Both the position numbers and the translations under genes were made by a program. Shown here one piece after another: positions 47,568-56,900 of a stretch of DNA of 64,000 bases (position 1 is its first letter; the number at the start of each line of letters is the position of its first letter). This stretch comes from Acetobacter senegalensis. GTDB taxonomy: Bacteria > Pseudomonadota > Alphaproteobacteria > Acetobacterales > Acetobacteraceae. The stretch is from positions 1-64,000 of the forward strand of contig NZ_LHZU01000145.1 of the NCBI RefSeq assembly GCF_001580995.1, in the 5' to 3' direction. A model generated the notes under the pieces. That model was not told the origin of the DNA, did no database searches, and worked only from the letters and a program-made list of their open reading frames with translations.

Positions 47568-48479
47568 ATGCCCCTTCTGCGCACCCTGATACGAGTTATT
47601 CTGACCCTGGCGGTCGTCTCACTGGCCATTGTTCTGGGGATAACCCTCTGGAACGTTTACATGATTGCGCCCTGGACCCGTGATGGCCGCGTGCGTGTGT
47701 ATGTGGTTGACGTTGCCCCTGAAGTTGCGGGAACGGTGGTTCAGATTCCGGTGGTGGACAACCAGTTTGTTCATAAGGGCGATCCCTTGTTCGTGCTGGA
47801 CCCGGTGCGGTTCCGTCTGGCGATTCGGGAAGCACAGGCCCGGCTGGATGGTGCGTTGGAAGACCTGAAGCTCAAGCGTAATGATGCACGCCGCCGCATG
47901 GGGCTGGGTGGCATTGTGTCAGCGGAAGAGCAGGAAGTCTTCAACTCCAATGTTGCAACCCAGATTGCCTCTGTGGATGCCGCCCGCGCTGCGCTGGATC
48001 TGGCAAAGCTGAACCTCCAGCGTTCCGTGCTGTATTCACCCGTTAATGGCTATGTGACCAACCTGAACGTACGGGTGGGGGATTACGCATCTGCCGGGCA
48101 GGCCCGGATGGCCGTGATCGATTCTGATTCCTACTGGGTTTACGGGTATTTTGAGGAAACAAAGATGTGGGGCGTGCATGTGGGGGATGAAGCCCGCGTG
48201 AAGCTGATGGGGTATAAACCTATCCTGACAGGCCATGTTGTCAGTATCGCCCGTGGTATCAATGACACCAACGGCACCCCCGACAAGCTGGGCCTTCAGG
48301 ACGTGAACCCCATCTTTACATGGGTGCGTCTGGCCCAGCGTATTCCGGTTCGTATCCATCTGGACCATGTGCCGGACAGCGTGACGCTGGCAGCGGGCAT
48401 GACGGCGACTGTCAGTGTTGGACCAGAGCCACGTGGGCGTCGGGGTAAGCTGACGACCTGGCTGCAAGATCATCTCTGA
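47568..48479 (+). CDS. AaeA/EmrA-like periplasmic adaptor (HlyD family)
   Basis: 303 residues with one N-terminal membrane helix (about 8-28). A biotinyl-lipoyl-like half (VDVAPEVAGTVVQIPVVDNQFVHKGDPLFVLD) is followed by a short coiled coil and the second lipoyl half (YSPVNGYVTNLNVRVGDYASAG). It would link an inner-membrane pump to the outer-membrane factor encoded next. In AaeAB systems it works with a FUSC-domain permease, which is not in this window. Confidence 0.87.
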   Translation: MPLLRTLIRVILTLAVVSLAIVLGITLWNVYMIAPWTRDGRVRVYVVDVAPEVAGTVVQIPVVDNQFVHKGDPLFVLDPVRFRLAIREAQARLDGALEDLKLKRNDARRRMGLGGIVSAEEQEVFNSNVATQIASVDAARAALDLAKLNLQRSVLYSPVNGYVTNLNVRVGDYASAGQARMAVIDSDSYWVYGYFEETKMWGVHVGDEARVKLMGYKPILTGHVVSIARGINDTNGTPDKLGLQDVNPIFTWVRLAQRIPVRIHLDHVPDSVTLAAGMTATVSVGPEPRGRRGKLTTWLQDHL

Positions 48480-48498
48480 GCGCGACGGGAAACGGAAA

Positions 48499-50013
48499 AT
48501 GAAGGTTCGTCGTCGCCTCGGCCTGTTCATGGCGTCTTCCATGCTGCTTTCGGCCTGCACAGTTGGGCCGAACTATCAGCCTGATCGCATGAAAGTGCCT
48601 GCGCAGTTCAAGGAAGCGGCGGAAGAACACCCCGCAACTCCGGAAGAAATTGCACACACCACTCAGGAAATGACCGAGTGGTGGGCTTCCTTCAATGATC
48701 CCATGCTGACCAGTCTGGTGAAGCAGGCGATTGAAGGGAACTTTGATCTCCAGATCGCTGGTCAGCGTATTCTGGCGGAACGGGCTATTCGTGATCGGTC
48801 AGCTTCCCAATGGTATCCTCAGATGGACGCCAATATGGGCGGGGGGGATGTTCGGTACTCTCTGAACATTGATAACTGGCCCATTCGTCCGGGTAATCCG
48901 CAAAACCGGCCAGAAGCGTCCATGCTGACATATGGTGCCATGGCCACATGGGAAATGGACGTATTCGGCCGTATCCGCCGTGATGTGGAAGCGCACGAGC
49001 GTGCGGTGGAAGCGTCCATTGAAGGCCGCCGCGCCCTGTTGATGACGCTGCTTTCCGAACTGGCGTCTGATTACATGCTGCTGCGGGTAACGCAGTTGCA
49101 GATCCATATCGCCACGGACAATATCCGGGTGGCCAAGGATGCGGTGGACCTGACCAACAAGCTGTATCTGGAAGGTGTGGGCAACACCTTGCAGATTGCA
49201 CAGGCGCAGGCGGAACTGGATTCCCAGATTGCGGCCCGTGAACCGTTGAAAACCCGTGTCTCCCAGATCACGCATGCCATTGCTGTGCTGCTGGGGAAAA
49301 TGCCGGGCGAGTTGGAAGATCAGCTCAAGGTGGTGCGGCCGCTGCCGACGGTTCCCGCATTCCCCGCGACTATGCCGTCTATTGTGATGGCGAACCGCCC
49401 GGATATCCGTATGGCGGAACGTAAATATGCATTGGCAACGGCGCAGATTGGTGTGGCAGTGGCCAACCTGTATCCGCACTTTGTTATTCCGCTAACGTTC
49501 AACCCCAACGCGTCAGCCATGTACCAGCTCTTTCAGGTGAACGCCATGAGCTGGCAGTTCCTGATGATGGCCAGCCTGCCCTTGATGCATGGCGGCAAGA
49601 TGACGGCGGAAGTCCGGGCAGCACAGGCATCAGCCGAGGCTGCGCGGTTGGAGTATAGGCAGACGGTGTTGACCGGCTTCAAGGAAGTTGAAGACGCCAT
49701 GGCCGCCTGGCATGATGACATTGAATATGCCGAGCAACTGCATAAGGCTGCGGAAGACAGCGCGACTGCCAGCGAGCGGGCACGCAAGCTGTACGGTGCT
49801 GGTCTGGTTGGCTTTCTGGAAGTGCTGACCACGGAACGCACAACCCTGAATGCCCAGAACCAGGAAGCACTGGCCAAGCTGGAACGTTTGCGTGATGCCG
49901 TGAACCTTTACACGGCTTTGGGCGCTGGGTGGAAAGGCGTGCCGCTTACCAACACCACACTTCCTGTTTCTCTTGAAACGCAGAATGTGTTAGCGCGGGC
50001 CTTCAAACAGTAA
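48499..50013 (+). CDS. NodT-type RND/efflux outer-membrane factor lipoprotein
   Basis: 504 residues with lipobox LLSAC (Cys20) and CTVGPNYQPD, the standard start of TolC-like outer-membrane factors. Two OEP repeats follow, with conserved segments such as MANRPDIRMAERKYALATAQIGVAVANLYP and GFKEVEDAMAAW. It forms the outer-membrane exit duct of the efflux complex. It starts 20 bases after the adaptor gene. Confidence 0.9.
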   Translation: MKVRRRLGLFMASSMLLSACTVGPNYQPDRMKVPAQFKEAAEEHPATPEEIAHTTQEMTEWWASFNDPMLTSLVKQAIEGNFDLQIAGQRILAERAIRDRSASQWYPQMDANMGGGDVRYSLNIDNWPIRPGNPQNRPEASMLTYGAMATWEMDVFGRIRRDVEAHERAVEASIEGRRALLMTLLSELASDYMLLRVTQLQIHIATDNIRVAKDAVDLTNKLYLEGVGNTLQIAQAQAELDSQIAAREPLKTRVSQITHAIAVLLGKMPGELEDQLKVVRPLPTVPAFPATMPSIVMANRPDIRMAERKYALATAQIGVAVANLYPHFVIPLTFNPNASAMYQLFQVNAMSWQFLMMASLPLMHGGKMTAEVRAAQASAEAARLEYRQTVLTGFKEVEDAMAAWHDDIEYAEQLHKAAEDSATASERARKLYGAGLVGFLEVLTTERTTLNAQNQEALAKLERLRDAVNLYTALGAGWKGVPLTNTTLPVSLETQNVLARAFKQ

Positions 50014-50421: not shown

Positions 50422-50452
50422 TCCCCCGCTTTTTATGAGCGGGGGATTTTTT
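50422..50452. terminator. Strong rho-independent terminator
   Basis: TCCCCCGCT (50422-50430) pairs with AGCGGGGGA (50438-50446), followed by six Ts on the plus strand; the minus strand also ends in a T-rich run. It ends the efflux operon and may serve the convergent RidA operon. Confidence 0.85.
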
Positions 50453-50502: not shown

Positions 50503-51030
50503 TTATTTTTTGGGCGCGCGTACAGCCGTCACTTCAATTTCGATCAGCCAGCCGGGGTTGGCGAGTTGTGCCACGGCAAAAGCAGAGCGAACCGGCAGAT
50601 TGGGCTGTTTCGCTGTGCCGAAATACTGGGTGTAGGCTTTCATCATGCCCGCAAAATCAAGCTGTTTTGTGCGAGGGTCGGCCACCATGTAGATATGCAT
50701 CTGCACAACGTCCCCCATGGTCAGGTTCAGCTTTTTCAGCTCGGCTTCAATGCGCTGAAGAGAGGCAAGCGTCTGGGTCTGCGTGTCACCATAGGCTTCA
50801 AGGCTTTTGGGCGGAGCAGTTTTATCCTGCACCGGGGCCCCCATGCCGCTCAGGTAGATTGTGCTTGCCCCAGCCGGAACCTCAATGGAGGTCGAGATCG
50901 GAAAATCGCCTTCGGCATGACGCACAATGCCCGTTTCAGCCTTGGCCACCAGCGGCATGGCCGTTGTGGCGGCAACCAGCGCCAGCGTACCAGCGGAAAG
51001 AAGAGTTTTGGAAAGGCGCACGTTATTCAT
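50503..51030 (-). CDS. Exported RidA-family imine/enamine deaminase
   Basis: 175 residues. An N-terminal signal peptide (KTLLSAGTLALVAATTAMPLVAKA) precedes a RidA domain. Residues near the end, NLPVRSAFAVAQL with the conserved Arg, and WLIEIEVTAVR with the conserved Glu, match the active site of enzymes that hydrolyse reactive imines and enamines. Most RidA proteins are cytosolic, so export is notable. It is last in an operon with a Tat flavoprotein and a cytochrome c, overlapping the latter by 8 bases, and would hydrolyse the imine made by that enzyme (inference). Confidence 0.8.
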   Translation of the reverse strand: MNNVRLSKTLLSAGTLALVAATTAMPLVAKAETGIVRHAEGDFPISTSIEVPAGASTIYLSGMGAPVQDKTAPPKSLEAYGDTQTQTLASLQRIEAELKKLNLTMGDVVQMHIYMVADPRTKQLDFAGMMKAYTQYFGTAKQPNLPVRSAFAVAQLANPGWLIEIEVTAVRAPKK

Positions 51031-51442
51031 CCTCTACAGTCAGGTGAGGCCGCATGGCGGCGACGTCTTCAGGCTTGAGCGTGTCAGTATAGTGGTTGCC
51101 AAAGTGCGTGCGAACGTAATTCACAACATTGGCCACCTGCTGGTCATTCAGCGCCACACCAAACCATGGCATGCCACCAAATCCGTTCAGCACCACATAG
51201 GCCGGGTATTCGGCACTTTGTAGCTTGGGGTTTCCTGCCAGCGCGGGAAAGCGGGCTCCAGCGCCTTCCGCGCCTTTGCCGTCCGGCATATGGCACCCTT
51301 GGCAGACATGTTTGTAAACCGCAGCACCATCGGGCAGCGTCTGCACTTTGCCTTCAACTGAGCTGGCGCTGTCAGCATAGGCGACAACCGGCATAAGGGC
51401 GGAGGAGAGCATAAGGGCGGAGAGAAGGAGAATGTGACGCAT
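51023..51442 (-). CDS. Monohaem c-type cytochrome, amine oxidation partner
   Basis: 139 residues with a signal peptide ending near VAYA, haem motif C-Q-G-C-H (about 47-51) followed by MPDGKG, and a distal Met in GGMPWFG. The ATG overlaps the flavoprotein stop. Such a cytochrome next to a Tat flavin amine oxidoreductase parallels CycN of NicA2-type nicotine degradation, where the flavoenzyme is really a cytochrome-dependent dehydrogenase. Confidence 0.85.
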   Translation of the reverse strand: MRHILLLSALMLSSALMPVVAYADSASSVEGKVQTLPDGAAVYKHVCQGCHMPDGKGAEGAGARFPALAGNPKLQSAEYPAYVVLNGFGGMPWFGVALNDQQVANVVNYVRTHFGNHYTDTLKPEDVAAMRPHLTVEDE

Positions 51443-53040
51443 CAGGCGGCTCCCAGTGCGCGTTTGTGCAGACGGGTGACGGCATCCAGCGCGGAGAGGA
51501 TGGCTCCTTCCTGCCAGCAGCCAATGTAGGACGCGTGTTCACCAGCCAGAACAACCCGGTTATCGACACTGCACAGTGTTTTGTAGTGGGTTTTGCGGGC
51601 CTCTTCCGTCCACATGGAGCAGCAGCCGAGTGTCCAGGGCACGCGGCTCCAGGCAAAGCTGACGCCGTTTGAAAACTCCTTGCGGTATTGCGGGTGAATG
51701 GCCGTGCCTTGGGTCAGGGCGCGTTCAAGCCGCTCCTTGGGGGTCATGCCTGCAAAATCATACGCGGCGGGGCCAAACATATACCCCCCCAGCAGAACTG
51801 CCGGTCCTTTGGAGAAAATACCGTGGCTGGGGTAGGAGATCTGGCTGATCTGCTGGTCAGTAAAGCTGATGCCGCCGTAAATCTGATCATCTTCCTCCCA
51901 GAAGCGGCGTTTGAATTCCATGCCCATCTTGACCGAGGACGCATAGGGCACGGCCAGAATGGCGGCTTTCATGGCGTCACTCACCTGCACATCCAACTGG
52001 GACAGAACGGAGAGCGGAATGGTGCAGACGCAGTAATCGGCCTGGGCCTGGCGCACCGCTCCACCGTTGGCCATATCATTATAGGTAACGGTCACGCCTT
52101 TCTGGTCCTGATGCAGGGCTGTGACCTTGCAGTTGAGCGTGATCAGATCCTTCACCTGCCGGGTGAAGCCCTTGCCAATCTGGTCCATGCCGCCAACAGG
52201 CTGGAACATGGTGGTCTGCATATCCAGCCGTTCATGAAAGGCCATCCAGTTCCATAGGCCGGACTTCATGACATCGTCCCGTGCGAACAGATCGGAGGGA
52301 ATGGGCGCGCCATCAATGCCGCCGCCTTGCGGGCGGGCGAAGCCACGGCGAAGGGAACTGGTATTTCCTTTCTTGTAGGTGTAATCCTTGGCCAGCCCAC
52401 CCCAAGATTTCATGGCCGTGCGCAGATGGTCGCGTTCGTCCTCGCTGACAAGATCGTCCAGCTTGTGCTGATCAATGGCTTTGGCAATCAGTTCGGCCGT
52501 GAAGCCGGTGAAATCCGATGCAAATTCCCGATAACGGACAGCCTTGCCGCCAAAGGCCCCTGTGGAGTGCAGCCAGGAATTATGATTGAGCTCGATAAAC
52601 GGTTCGAGCTGGATGCCAAATTCCCGGCAGTAATGCAGGAGCCCCTGATGATGATAGGGGATACGCCACGGGCCGGGGTTGATGTAATTGCCCGGCGCAA
52701 ACCCCACTTTTTGCGTGGCTCCGCCCAGTTCTGTTACGGTATCGCCACCGCGCAGACTGATGTTGCGACCGCCACTGCGGCTCTGAAATTCAAGAATCTG
52801 AACATCATAGCCGGCTTTTCGTAATTCATAGGCAGAGAGCATGCCCGAAAGGCCAGACCCCAGCACGAGAACCTTGGTTCCTTTTTTGGCTCCGCCAAGG
52901 GCTGGCGGCCCTTTGAAATCCGTTCCCTGAGCGTGGCCAAGACTGGTCATGGCCTGATAAAGGGCGGCGCTTCCTGCCAAAGTGCCAATGCGCGTCAGCA
53001 ACTGCCTGCGGGTGGGAGGAGAAGAATGAGCTGATGGCAT
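51442..53040 (-). CDS. Tat-exported flavin monoamine oxidase-family dehydrogenase
   Basis: 532 residues. Twin-arginine leader (TRRQLLTRIG, about 9-18), FAD Rossmann motif VLVLGSGLSGMLSAYELRKAGYDVQILE, SRSGGRN, and the C-terminal FAD motif GEHASYIGCWQEGAILSA. This is the MAO/L-amino acid oxidase/NicA2 superfamily, oxidising amines to imines. ATG 53040 is preferred over the adjacent TTG 53043. It is first of three overlapping genes with cytochrome c and RidA. The substrate is not known. Confidence 0.82.
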   Translation of the reverse strand: MPSAHSSPPTRRQLLTRIGTLAGSAALYQAMTSLGHAQGTDFKGPPALGGAKKGTKVLVLGSGLSGMLSAYELRKAGYDVQILEFQSRSGGRNISLRGGDTVTELGGATQKVGFAPGNYINPGPWRIPYHHQGLLHYCREFGIQLEPFIELNHNSWLHSTGAFGGKAVRYREFASDFTGFTAELIAKAIDQHKLDDLVSEDERDHLRTAMKSWGGLAKDYTYKKGNTSSLRRGFARPQGGGIDGAPIPSDLFARDDVMKSGLWNWMAFHERLDMQTTMFQPVGGMDQIGKGFTRQVKDLITLNCKVTALHQDQKGVTVTYNDMANGGAVRQAQADYCVCTIPLSVLSQLDVQVSDAMKAAILAVPYASSVKMGMEFKRRFWEEDDQIYGGISFTDQQISQISYPSHGIFSKGPAVLLGGYMFGPAAYDFAGMTPKERLERALTQGTAIHPQYRKEFSNGVSFAWSRVPWTLGCCSMWTEEARKTHYKTLCSVDNRVVLAGEHASYIGCWQEGAILSALDAVTRLHKRALGAA

Positions 53041-53127: not shown

Positions 53128-53149
53128 AATGTTCCCTATTAGGAACATT
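53128..53149. promoter_or_regulatory. Candidate operator upstream of the flavoprotein operon
   Basis: AATGTTCC (53128-53135) and GGAACATT (53142-53149) form a perfect 8-bp dyad with a 6-base spacer, about 90 bases before the flavoprotein start. The symmetry and spacing suit a dimeric HTH regulator; which one is unknown. Confidence 0.45.
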
Positions 53150-53250: not shown

Positions 53251-55623
53251 TTAACGTGCCCAGCTCCAGTTTCGGATTTCCGGCATGTCTTCCCCATATT
53301 CACAAACATAGCGTTGATGTTCAGCCAGTTTGTCCTGCACGGCCTGGTGCGCATAAGCCGCTTTGGAGGCCAGCCTTGGTACGCGCCGGATAACGTTGGC
53401 AGCCAGATGGAACCGATCCAGATGGTTGCGGACCGTCATGTCAAACGGGGTGGTGGTTGTGCCTTCCTCACGGAACCCGTGCACATGGAAGTTGATGGCG
53501 TTCCGGCGCTTGTAAATAAGCTGATGCACCAGGGCAGGATAGCCGTGGAATGCGAAAATAACCGGCTTGTCGGTTGTGAACAGGGTATCAAACGTGGCGT
53601 CTGGCAGGCCGTGCGGGTGCTGGTCTGGCGTTTGCAGCGTCATGAGATCAACCACGTTGACCACGCGGATTTTCAGGTCCGGAATATGTTTGTTGAGAAT
53701 ACTGACAGCCGCCAGTGCTTCCAGTGTTGGCACATCCCCCGCGCAACCGATAATCACGTCTGGTTCTGAGCCTTTATCATTGCTGGCCCATTCCCAGATG
53801 CCAATACCCTGCTGGCAATGGGTGAGTGCGGCATCCATATCCAGCCACTGGAGCTCAGGCTGCTTGCCCGCCACAATCACATTGATACGGTTGCGGCTGC
53901 GCAGGCAATGGTCTGTCACACACAGCAGCGTATTGGCATCCGGCGGCAGATAGATCCGTACCGTTTCGGCTTTTTTGGTCACCATGTGGTTGAGAAAGCC
54001 CGGGTCCTGATGGCTGAACCCGTTATGGTCCTGCCGCCAGACGTGAGAGGTCAGCAGATAATTCAGCGAGGCAATAGGTTGCCGCCACTCGGTTTCAGAT
54101 GCTGTTTTCAACCATTTTGCATGCTGGTTGACCATGGAATCCACAATGTGGATGAACGCTTCATAACAGGACATGAAGCCATGACGGCCCGTCAGCAGAT
54201 AGCCTTCCAGCCAGCCCTGGCACGTATGTTCGCTTAGAATTTCCATCACGTGGCCATCAGGGGAGAGATGGTCATCATAGGAATAGGTTTCCGCGTTCCA
54301 CGCGCGGTTGGTCACATCCAGAACAGCGTTCAGGCGGTTCGAGTTGTTTTCGTCCGGGGCCACAATCCGGAAGTTCCGTTTATCCGCATTGGCGGCCATG
54401 ACATCTTTCAACCACGAGCCCAGAATGCGTGTGGATTCCGCTACGGTCTGGCCCGGGGCCGTGATCTGCACCGCATGGGTGCGGAAGTCGGGCAGGCGCA
54501 GGGGCCGCAGATGGGTGCCGCCATTGGCATAGGGCGTGGCGCTCATGCGTTTGTCGCCCTTGGGCGCAAGGGCAGCAAGTTCCGGTTTTAATGCACCTTT
54601 GGGCGTGAACAGATCATCCGGTTTGTAGGACCGCATCCATTCTTCAAGCACCGCCAGATGGCCGGGCTTGCTCATATTGTCCACCGGCACCTGATGGGAG
54701 CGCCAGTACCCTTCCGTGCGCAGGCCATCAACCGTTTTGGGGCCGGTCCAGCCTTTGGGGCTGCGCAGCACGATCATGGGCCATGCGGGGCGGGTGGTGT
54801 CTCCCTGTGTGCGGGCCTTTTCCTGAATGGCGCTGATGCTGGCAAATGCCTGATCCATGGCTGTGGCCATGGCCTGATGCATGGGGTCAGGTTCATGCCC
54901 TTCCACAAAAATGGGGTCATACCCGCAGCCTTTCAGGAAATCTCTCAGCTCGGGCTTGGGAATGCGGGCCAGAATGGTGGGGTTGGCAATCTTGTAGCCA
55001 TTCAGGTGTAGAATGGGCAGTACTGCCCCGTCTGTCTTGGGGTCAAGAAACTTGTTGGAATGCCAGGATGTGGCCAGTGGCCCCGTTTCTGCTTCTCCAT
55101 CACCGATCACGCAGGCCACAACCAGATCAGGATGGTCAAAAGCCGCGCCATAAGCGTGGGAGAGGCTGTAGCCCAGTTCTCCCCCTTCATGAATGGAGCC
55201 AGGCGTGGTTGCCGCGGCATGGCTGGGGATGCCGCCCGGGAACGAGAACTGGCGGAAGAGGCGGGTCATGCCCTCTTCATCCTGCGTTACGTCCGGAAAA
55301 TATTCTGTGTAGGTGCCTTCCATCCATGTGGAGGCAATCAGCCCCGGAGCGCCATGACCCGGCCCCGCGATGAACAGGATGTTGCGGTCCTGCGCGCGGA
55401 TAATACGGTTAAGGTGCAGCCAGATGAAGTTCAGGCCGGGCGTTGTGCCCCAATGCCCCAGCAGGCGTTTCTTGATGTCCTCCAGCTTCAGTGGCTCACG
55501 CAGTAAAGCATTTTTCAGCAGGTAGATCTGACCAACCGAGAGATAATTGGCAGCGTGCCACCACCTGTTGAACAGGGCCAGATCTGCGGCTGAAAGCGGT
55601 GCTGAGGGAGTTTGCGTGCTCAT
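53251..55623 (-). CDS. xfp: Xylulose-5-phosphate/fructose-6-phosphate phosphoketolase
   Basis: 790 residues, full length. Motifs include [11 protein letters not shown] (about 64-74), the thiamine-diphosphate site [15 protein letters not shown] (about 153-167), and [19 protein letters not shown]. The enzyme splits xylulose 5-phosphate (and often fructose 6-phosphate) with phosphate to acetyl phosphate and a triose or tetrose phosphate. ATG follows AAAGGAC. It lies 47 bases after acetate kinase on the same strand, an operon that turns acetyl phosphate into acetate and ATP. Confidence 0.93.
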
Positions 55624-55670
55624 GGAGTGTCCTTTTTCAGGAAAGAGGCCGGAAGCAGGAGGCGCAAGGG

Positions 55671-56900
55671 TCAGGCCGGAGAGGCTTTGGCCAGCAGATC
55701 CAGCGTTGAGATGACATCCTTGCAGATCATCAGTTCTTCATTTGTTGGCTCCACGCGGATGATGACGGAACTATCGGGCGTGCTGATAATGGGGGCATGG
55801 CGCTGGTTGGCTTCCGCATCCAGGCGCACACCAACCCACTGCAGGGCAGTGCACACCTCTGCACGGAGGGCGGCATCATTCTCGCCAATGCCTGCGGTGA
55901 AGACGAGCCCATCCAACCCTTGCAGGATGGCCGTAAGGGCACCGATTTCCTGCACCACGCGATAGGCGAACAGATTGAGGGCTTCCCGCGCATTGGCAGC
56001 TTGTGGGGTGGACGCCTTTGCCTGCTCGCGGAGGGAGCGCATATCTGCCGCAAGACCGGAAACACCCAGCAGGCCGGATTGATGGTAGAGGACATCAACA
56101 ATGGTATGCCATCCCGCGCCTTCTTCCTGCATCATGTAGAGCAGGACCCCTGGGTCCAGTGCACCGCAGCGCGTGCCCATCATCAGTCCGTCCAGCGCGG
56201 AGAACCCCATGGTGGTTTCAATGCTCTGGCCGTTTTTCAGGGCGCACAGGCTGGCCCCGCTGCCCAGATGCGCAACAATGGTCCGGCCCTGCGCAAGTTT
56301 GGGATCAATCTCGCGCAGGCGGGAGGAGATATAGGCGTAGGAAAGGCCATGAAAACCGTAGCGCCGCACGCCTGCCTGATCGTATCGGCGGGGAAGGGGC
56401 AGTAATTTGGCCAGCGGGGGCATGGTGTGGTGGAAGCCTGTATCAAAACAGGCAATCTGCGGAAGATCAGGGCGTTCGCGCGCAATCACTTTGATCGGGG
56501 CGAGTGTAACGGTCTGATGCAAGGGGGCGAAGGGCGTCAGCTTTTCCAGTTGCGCCAGAATATCCGGCGTAATGCGCACCGGAGCGATAAAATCAGGGCC
56601 GCCATGAACCACACGGTGGCCCACAGCCACCACTTTCCCACCGTCAAGATGGCTTTCTATCCATTTGAAAAGCGGACCAAGCGAAAACGGGGCTGTTTTA
56701 TCCGTATGGTCTGGCTGGCTCCAGGTACAATCCGTCAGAACGGTGCCTGTGTTGTCCACAGCATGAAAGCGCGGGGAGTCGGGCGTTGTTTCAACTGCGC
56801 CATGTGCCAGCACGGCTGGAGCAGCGTGTGCCTGCAAACGGAACAACGTGAATTTCAGGCTGGATGATCCGCAATTGAAGGCCAGTATGACGTCTGACAA
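55671..56900 (-). CDS. ackA: Acetate kinase
   Basis: 409 residues with the family signature [13 protein letters not shown] near the start, VVHGG (about 118-122), HLGSGASL and [12 protein letters not shown] near the end. It converts acetyl phosphate and ADP to acetate and ATP. The start codon is TTG at 56900, with GGGAG about 10 bases upstream; no ATG gives the conserved N-terminus. No phosphotransacetylase is nearby, so the acetyl phosphate source is the adjacent phosphoketolase. Confidence 0.93.

Follow-up and report, generated by a model that had tools for sequence, protein, structure and literature searches.

What would a Rid protein with a signal peptide do beside an exported flavoprotein and a cytochrome c? 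Rid proteins are usually cytosolic, and their known task is to protect the cell interior from imines; imino acids also hydrolyse in water unaided. The question is raised by three adjoining genes in a 64,000-nucleotide stretch of Acetobacter senegalensis DNA (contig NZ_LHZU01000145.1, positions 1 to 64,000; here called the window). As the probable answer, we propose a periplasmic L-amino acid dehydrogenase module, in which a Tat-exported flavoprotein of the L-amino acid oxidase (LAAO) family would pass its electrons to the cytochrome c of the same operon, and an exported Rid protein would clear the imines.

Materials and methods

The survey of relatives covered 197 distinct loci, LAAO matches of fewer than 400 aligned residues and repeated core sequences having been excluded. 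Cytochrome c and Rid genes were counted if they lay no more than 2.5 kb from the LAAO gene and on its strand; many loci extend only 1.5 kb per side, and absences are provisional. The 112 loci with a Rid gene gave 108 distinct Rid proteins after merging of the identical pair L009/L010 and of three Rid genes, each of which has two LAAO genes nearby. Export leaders were assigned with a rule of our own; its hydrophobicity threshold was 1.55, lowered from 1.6, which admitted L186. The control Rid proteins, 33 after removal of a duplicate (L232) and two misframed entries (L239, L240) from 36 loci, gave the same result at both thresholds. The rule for Tat leaders was permissive, asking only for RR followed by a stretch with no more than one charged residue, and it also flags charged leaders in two LAAOs that have no Rid, L098 and L110. 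Fifteen LAAOs were designated as having a decayed Tat leader by our own reading. The other 93 Rid proteins comprise 89 beside LAAOs that pass the rule (88 of them with a leader), three whose LAAO has an RR motif that is clear on reading and was misplaced by the rule (L031, L083, L203), and one whose LAAO is frame-split (L025). In L212 it is the Rid gene that is frame-split.

Results

The triad of the first-pass annotation is confirmed: its genes lie head to tail between 50503 and 53040, on the minus strand. The flavoprotein gene (51442..53040, 532 aa; PF01593, E 5e-54) shares a TGATG, its stop overlapping the start of the cytochrome c gene (51023..51442, 139 aa; PF13442, E 4.4e-13), whose stop is in turn overlapped or abutted by the start of the Rid gene (50503..51030; PF01042, E 1.8e-16). 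The Rid protein has 175 aa if read from ATG 51030 and 172 aa from GTG 51021. The latter may be the true start: GAGG is located 9 bases upstream of it, and in three relatives (L013, L016, L017) the Rid frame permits no start earlier than its equivalent. The leader of the Rid protein is retained under both. A hairpin with T runs on both strands (50423..50445), read from the sequence and unscored, is a probable terminator 3΄ of the Rid gene. Upstream of the flavoprotein gene, an inverted repeat, AATGTTCC-N6-GGAACATT (53128..53149), was considered as a possible operator; it is kept in only 1 of the 24 relatives inspected, the nearest one (L010), so that we dropped it as a conserved element and make no regulatory claim. 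A search against Rfam at gathering scores returned tRNA and no other RNA match. Chance or a contig artefact as the source of the triad was ruled out, the cluster recurring across many genomes.

The flavoprotein belongs to the LAAO branch of the flavin amine oxidoreductases by both sequence and fold. LAAOs head both match lists: the closest solved relative is the Rhodococcus LAAO 2jae (E 1.1e-86, among the best 60 of 79 solved sequences), which is also the best fold match of the model (TMq 0.82), with other LAAOs next and MAO-A reaching just 0.57 among the best 50 matches. No nicotine or pseudooxynicotine enzyme appears by name among those best 60 sequences or best 50 fold matches. Arg126, in a G-x-x-R-I-P motif (codon 52663..52665, minus strand), aligns with the Arg that binds the substrate carboxylate in LAAOs and is invariant in the 26 sequences of alignment A1 and the 31 of A3, the window included; Lys371, on the flavin side, is likewise invariant in both. 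In the two LAAO alignments shown, R126 pairs with the Arg of that motif and Y420 with a Tyr, which is present in at least 90% of A1 and, in A3, is the majority residue while falling under the 90% listing. The carboxylate role is described for Arg90 of the C. rhodostoma LAAO (PMC6149928), and R126 and Y420 were equated with Arg90 and Tyr372 of that enzyme by counting alignment positions, the Tyr match being approximate; a literature search for Arg84 of the Rhodococcus LAAO found none. Because the enzyme is closest to LAAOs and its carboxylate-binding Arg is invariant, L-amino acids are its likely substrates. These matches rule out the NicA2-type amine dehydrogenase of the first-pass annotation, and with it a monoamine substrate. 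Export of the flavoprotein, as claimed there, is predicted from its N-terminus: a Tat signal peptide region recognized by eye (TRRQLLTR...GHAQ; 52927..53040, minus strand), in which R12 is invariant in A1 and R11 and R12 both are in A3. Residues 1-38 of the model, residue 17 excepted, are of low confidence.

The cytochrome c contains a single CQGCH haem motif (51290-51304, minus strand) and a Sec-type leader ending in AYA, and is thus also predicted to be exported. According to PMC12224317, a Tat leader and an adjacent Sec-type cytochrome c, which were put to a kinetic test there, are good predictors of cytochrome-using members of this superfamily, and the window has both signs, a Tat signal on the flavoprotein and an adjacent cytochrome c with an export leader. 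The flavin-side Lys, reputed to promote the reaction with O2 in oxidases, is present in the window flavoprotein, and according to the same source it is present in nearly all the dehydrogenases too. We predict that the flavoprotein is an L-amino acid dehydrogenase that uses the cytochrome c. A search of this genome yielded no cytochrome c oxidase.

The Rid protein groups with Rid3 by its best solved matches, PFL_1385 (9bkc) and PSPTO_3006 (9bka), which lead with E 4.6e-31 and 3.4e-26, the next being at 1e-6; 9bka is also the best fold match of its model. Both proteins are assigned to Rid3 in PMC5619798, and we call the window protein Rid3-like. The cut-off for RidA sensu stricto (TIGR00004) is not reached, with 38 bits vs 106.25. 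Arg148 (codon 50587..50589, minus strand) aligns with the catalytic Arg of imine-hydrolysing Rids, which is required for activity (PMC4433059) and is found in 113 of 113 aligned rows (112 loci and one further copy of the window). Its leader, MNNVRLSKTLLSAGTLALVAATTAMPLVAKA (50938..51030, minus strand; predicted cleavage AKA/E), has a positive n-region, a hydrophobic core and a small-x-small cleavage site, which by our own rule marks an exported protein, and pLDDT is about 50 in the first 30 residues vs more than 90 across most of the Rid fold.

A genome survey for the triad, proposed with the first-pass annotation, found both cytochrome c and Rid beside the LAAO in 78 of the 197 distinct loci, Rid in 112, cytochrome c in 146 and neither in 17, an association that exceeds chance. 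Presence of the cytochrome c changes only 4 times on the tree and that of Rid 22 times. Rid was not found beside the LAAO in 85/197 loci, of which 9 have less than 1.2 kb of flank on a side, nor in any of the 13 Caulobacterales loci; given these 85 loci and its 22 changes, Rid is not essential. The claim of a self-contained route to the cytochrome, as first made, passes over two results: the genome search yielded no cytochrome c oxidase, and cytochrome c and Rid are each missing from beside the LAAO in many relatives among the 197 loci.

Where Rid is present, its leader is conserved. Outside the group with decayed LAAO leaders, 92 of 93 Rid proteins are signal-like (74/74 with a cytochrome c, 18/19 without), which upholds the signal-peptide Rid of the first-pass annotation; inside it, none of 15 are, and among the other Rid proteins taken as controls a leader occurs in 2/33. 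The one exception, L272, has no Lys or Arg in its n-region, is signal-peptide-like otherwise, and was excluded from the count of Rid leader changes on the tree. The 15 leaderless Rids all adjoin LAAOs with a decayed Tat leader and form one clade, one event, so that the agreement in address between LAAO and Rid rests on a single tree change. Some leaders (L135, L139, L142, a Comamonas plasmid) are lipoprotein-like, i.e. the type of leader would have changed and export been retained. On a Metabacillus plasmid, a Tat-type LAAO, a leader-bearing Rid, tatA and tatC are consecutive. On a Rid tree built from few columns, in which long branches meet, the Rids beside LAAOs cluster together and separate from 27 other Rids. 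From these sequences, the prediction of an exported imine hydrolase that follows the address of its oxidase is well supported.

Discussion

We propose that the flavoprotein is folded with FAD and then exported by Tat, and that outside the cytoplasm it would oxidize L-amino acids to 2-imino acids, with the operon cytochrome c, and not mainly O2, as the acceptor that reoxidizes its flavin. The Rid3-like protein would reach the same compartment by its own signal peptide, and there speed hydrolysis of the imino acid, so that keto acid and ammonia are formed before other molecules are attacked. This keto acid (indole-3-pyruvate where tryptophan is the substrate) would remain outside the cytoplasm.

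How electrons leave the flavin is the point at which a different reading of the operon must be weighed. The enzyme could be a plain periplasmic LAAO that uses O2 and makes hydrogen peroxide, with a cytochrome c that scavenges the peroxide or serves another pathway and a Rid that clears imines. Its closest solved relatives are indeed named oxidases, it retains the flavin-side Lys, our genome search yielded no cytochrome c oxidase, and in Pseudomonas-type, Metabacillus and other relatives we see LAAO and Rid with no cytochrome found nearby. We nevertheless regard this as rather unlikely, as a cytochrome c stands beside the LAAO in 146/197 loci with so few changes on the tree, a Tat leader and an adjacent cytochrome predicted dehydrogenase behaviour in PMC12224317, and Gluconacetobacter diazotrophicus mutants in cytochrome c maturation lose most of their auxin, as reported in PMC5053998.

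The part played by Rid can be read in other ways too. Instead of hydrolysing imines as a free enzyme, it could serve the flavoprotein as a second subunit with a structural or regulatory role; PMC5053998 mentions such a case from Chlamydomonas, an LAAO complex in which the RidA subunit is non-catalytic, and that the LAAO-adjacent Rids are one group apart from the 27 others is what a fixed partner would give. Against this, the catalytic Arg is present in every aligned row, PMC5619798 describes two relatives from this group that work as imine deaminases by themselves, and no Rid was found beside the LAAO in 85/197 loci; we judge it unlikely. Far less probable is a wrongly called start, with a leader that is spurious and a Rid that is cytosolic, as is usual for the family. 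While 31/33 control Rids are leaderless and a Met occurs at residue 25 within the leader, this Met is not at a position common to the aligned relatives, certain Rid leaders are lipoprotein-like, and the leader is kept in 92/93 comparable Rids despite sequence divergence vs 2/33 controls and is gone in 15/15 beside decayed LAAO leaders. The cytochrome-linked module with a Rid that hydrolyses imines in place is thus the reading that we retain.

The triad itself is already known. A lao-cccA-ridA cluster was published in 2016 for G. diazotrophicus PAL5 (GDI2456-2454), where, according to PMC5053998, insertions in lao abolished the formation of auxin (IAA) from tryptophan and lowered the cccA and ridA transcripts, the cytochrome c maturation mutants formed a reported 5% of the IAA, and cooperation of LAAO, cytochrome c and RidA was already proposed. 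The two clusters have the same three families in the same order, a Tat-type LAAO and an acetic acid bacterium as host; genetic support for the oxidation of L-amino acids comes from the G. diazotrophicus relative. In the portion of that report available to us, a signal peptide is given for LAAO only, and nothing is said on RidA export or on how well it is conserved. The PAL5 sequence lies outside the surveyed loci; three other Gluconacetobacter species (L146, L148, L149) have the Rid leader. In Chlamydomonas, LAO1 with LAO2/RIDA also places an LAAO and a RidA outside the cytoplasm and turns tryptophan into indole-3-pyruvate (PMC10805672, PMC5053998), although this is a eukaryote, its product is hydrogen peroxide, and no cytochrome c partner is given in what we had of PMC10805672. 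The novelty claimed in the first-pass annotation therefore falls for the triad, its cooperation and a periplasmic LAAO-RidA pair, and holds for Rid export matched consistently to the LAAO address, of which the papers found give no description; a search combining Rid family, signal peptide and imine deaminase found none. A search on Rid export matched two papers on cable bacteria, and a paper on Tat substrates of P. aeruginosa (PMC6085387) has none of the five terms looked for in it.

Other parallels share fewer features. Clustering of Rid3 and amine oxidase genes (PMC4433059) and Tat-plus-cytochrome-c dehydrogenases (PMC12224317) are both in print. The latter, of the NicA2/Pnao-CycN type, also combine Tat export of the flavoprotein, from the same superfamily, with a neighbouring cytochrome c exported by Sec, but they were found with a NicA2 query, whereas the window enzyme sides with LAAOs and has a Rid partner; neither 'LAAO' nor 'imine' occurs in the text of PMC12224317. 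The Rid6 of the Agrobacterium tumefaciens S33 nicotine cluster is similarly encoded with amine-oxidising flavoenzymes, whose reactive products it is thought to handle; it is, however, a Rid6 and not a Rid3, and all the enzymes of that pathway but NdhAB are cytoplasmic (PMC7688666). As for the two solved Rid3 proteins, both are reported to be active on LAAO-made imino acids, PFL_1385 having been measured on those made by snake LAAO (PMC5619798). The leader of PFL_1385 is visible in its deposited sequence and goes unmentioned in PMC5619798, from whose text 'signal' and 'periplasm' are absent. PSPTO_3006 is leaderless and resembles the Rids of the decayed-Tat-leader clade. Near relatives of both adjoin an LAAO gene in Pseudomonas-type loci, in which, unlike the window, no cytochrome gene was found.

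What does the operon mean for these families? With some reserve, we favour the view that the LAAO-adjacent Rid3 branch is a subfamily of exported imine hydrolases that guard the periplasm or cell surface and have moved together with their oxidase, such that in one Pseudomonas clade the oxidase went back to the cytoplasm and the Rid leader was lost too. The LAAO branch that combines a Tat leader with a cytochrome c would add one more set, distinct from those known, of L-amino acid dehydrogenases that use a cytochrome. As our search of this Acetobacter genome yielded no cytochrome c oxidase, its electrons would leave the cytochrome by some other route. The finding marks PFL_1385, a Rid3 protein for which a crystal structure and assays already exist, as leader-bearing, and offers a biochemical reading for the lao cluster through which plant-associated acetic acid bacteria form auxin. 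It also predicts that many cytochrome-using L-amino acid dehydrogenases may be present among genes annotated as oxidases. A conserved group of exported Rids, if true, would mean that imine damage is managed outside the cytoplasm too.

RESULTS

In the window, the genes for a flavoprotein (lao; 53040-51442, PF01593), a cytochrome c (cccA; 51442-51023, PF13442) and a Rid protein (ridA; 51030-50503, PF01042) are consecutive on the minus strand in this order, and the head-to-tail set read by the first-pass annotation at 53040-50503 is thus present. The flavoprotein stop overlaps the cytochrome c start. From ATG 51030 the Rid gene overlaps the cytochrome c stop, and from GTG 51021 it begins one base past it; a GAGG is better placed for the GTG, whose equivalent is the earliest possible Rid start in three relative loci (L013, L016 and L017). 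An inverted repeat, AATGTTCC-N6-GGAACATT, lies at 53128-53149, about 110 bases upstream of the L-amino acid oxidase (LAAO) gene; the nearest relative keeps its arms with a different spacer. By reading of their translations, the neighbours resemble phosphoketolase and acetate kinase (53251-56900, minus strand) and an efflux adaptor and outer-membrane factor (47568-50013, plus strand).

The flavoprotein had been taken for an amine dehydrogenase, and our results argue against this. Among the best 60 of 79 matches to solved proteins, the flavoprotein was closest to the Rhodococcus L-amino acid oxidase (E 1.1e-86); reconstructed tetrapod and snake LAAOs came next. The fold ranking of the predicted model (mean pLDDT 83.8) agrees with the sequence ranking: among the best 50 matches, the Rhodococcus enzyme (2jae) leads with TMq 0.82, ahead of snake LAAOs (0.65-0.69) and monoamine oxidase A (0.57). 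Arg126 and Lys371 are invariant in two alignments that contain the window protein, one of 26 and one of 31 sequences, and Arg126 aligns with the Arg of the LAAO G-x-x-R-I-P motif. The Calloselasma rhodostoma LAAO is reported to bind the substrate carboxylate by Arg90 with Tyr372 (PMC6149928), residues that we equated with window positions by manual counting along the alignment. Conservation is looser at the Tyr partner, Tyr420, which is Tyr in at least 90% of the 26 sequences and in a majority of the 31. Because sequence and fold are closest to LAAOs, and Arg126 stands at the carboxylate-binding position, the predicted substrate class is L-amino acids, not amines.

RidA sensu stricto was rejected for the Rid protein (TIGR00004 score of 38 bits against a cut-off of 106.25). 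By both sequence and fold its closest solved relatives are PSPTO_3006 and PFL_1385, reported as Rid3 subfamily members active on imino acids from snake LAAO (PMC5619798). The genome holds six more Pfam matches to the Rid family, one of them under the cut-off, and the window Rid matched none of its other Rid-family proteins at E 0.001. The catalytic Arg is present in 113 of 113 aligned Rid rows, and in a FastTree tree of few columns and long branches a single branch (support 94) separates the LAAO-adjacent Rids from 27 other Rids.

We sought LAAO relatives in 100 related genomes, of which 53 matched at E 0.001 and 36, by our own count, below 1e-30; at 1e-30 the numbers were 20/385 genomes for the class, 27/398 for the phylum and 35/149 for one further genus. 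These sets overlap, the related, class and phylum sets each including the window's own genome. With the best 80 of a longer list of named LAAO loci added, and short and identical LAAOs removed, 197 loci were obtained. Of these, 146 have a cytochrome c gene beside the LAAO, 112 a Rid gene, 78 have both and 17 neither, so that the survey proposed earlier does recover the triad elsewhere. Since the LAAO tree requires 4 changes in cytochrome c presence versus 22 for Rid, cytochrome c is a stable partner and Rid an accessory, frequently gained or lost. All 13 Caulobacterales loci have cytochrome c and no Rid, although PMC5053998 cites the lao cluster as conserved in Caulobacter crescentus. Several genomes of the window's own genus (G011, G044, G041, G029, G036 and others) carry at least two full-length LAAO copies at separate sites, and some copies have cytochrome c, with Rid not found nearby.

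The 112 LAAO-adjacent Rids represent 108 distinct proteins. By our own rule (positive n-region, hydrophobic core, small-x-small site), a signal-peptide-like leader is borne by 92 of the 93 outside the decayed-leader group (74/74 with cytochrome c, 18/19 without); among their LAAO partners, 89 pass a loose Tat rule, 3 have a readable RR motif and 1 is frame-split. None of the 15 Rids adjoining LAAOs with a decayed Tat leader has one. Control Rids from elsewhere in related genomes scored in 2 of 33 cases, both apparently genuine leaders on other exported Rids. Two Rid-family proteins that lie outside the LAAO-adjacent group, in differing neighbourhoods, have signal-peptide-like leaders (L290:1898-2344 and L291:1847-2314), and therefore Rid export may have more than one origin.

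The further genus gave 37 matches, 30 of them with loci, and we inspected 31 loci (28 from this search, 3 from another set). Every one has a Rid: 16 combine an intact Tat leader with a leader-bearing Rid, and 15 a relic leader (RR kept, hydrophobic stretch charged) with a Rid starting directly at the domain. No cytochrome c was found in their 1.5 kb flanks. The two Rid types of this genus align almost end to end with PFL_1385 and PSPTO_3006, and on this ground we take it for Pseudomonas. The deposited sequence of PFL_1385 (PDB 9bkc; 165 residues) opens with a signal-peptide-like leader, and its structure chains are listed at 126-128 residues. The joint change of Rid and LAAO address needs a single event on the tree, and is thus one natural experiment.

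Outside examples strengthen the exported-Rid reading. On the Metabacillus dongyingensis plasmid NZ_OK052578 (Bacillota; L289:3474-6737), a Tat-type LAAO, a leader-bearing Rid, tatA and tatC are consecutive, apparently an exported pair accompanied by its own Tat genes. A Comamonas plasmid, likewise strengthening this reading, carries LAAO and cytochrome c together with a Rid that shows a lipoprotein-like leader once its frame is extended upstream; leaders of this type are also seen in L135, L139 and L142. Plasmids of Deinococcus proteolyticus and Rhizobium gallicum carry LAAO and cytochrome c with no annotated Rid in the stretch; in the former (NC_015169, L286:2758-5054) cytochrome c precedes LAAO, a pair outside Proteobacteria.

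DISCUSSION

Where would the electrons go? A Tat signal with an adjacent cytochrome c is reported to predict cytochrome-using dehydrogenases in this flavoprotein superfamily (PMC12224317, in whose text the words 'LAAO' and 'imine' are absent). In Gluconacetobacter diazotrophicus, lao insertions are reported to abolish IAA, said to be 5% in cytochrome maturation mutants (PMC5053998), genetics that agree with a putative cytochrome-using enzyme. By three family searches, the window's own genome (G000) has bc1-type complexes, with two cytochrome c1 genes, and no detectable cytochrome c oxidase, since its sole COX2 match lacks the CuA motif and FixO was not found (L283, L284, L285). This oxidase is the usual exit for cytochrome c electrons. 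Among solved proteins, the triad cytochrome c most closely resembles the cytochrome subunits of fructose and alcohol dehydrogenases (E 3e-9), enzymes that in acetic acid bacteria pass electrons to ubiquinone; because of this resemblance, a quinone route is a candidate exit worth testing.

The exported RidA module had been thought new. The triad and a proposed joint action of LAAO, cytochrome c and RidA were already published in 2016 (PMC5053998), and the clustering of Rid3 and RidA with amine oxidase genes in 2015 (PMC4433059, where neither a signal peptide nor periplasm nor cytochrome is mentioned). For a Rid6 protein encoded in a nicotine cluster, the role considered is that of a cytoplasmic enamine/imine guard (PMC7688666), and a full-text literature search, with subscription journals mostly outside its coverage, found no paper describing exported Rid proteins of bacteria. 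Because of these precedents, novelty is limited to what the sequences suggest about the Rid itself: a group of exported Rids that changes compartment together with the oxidase.
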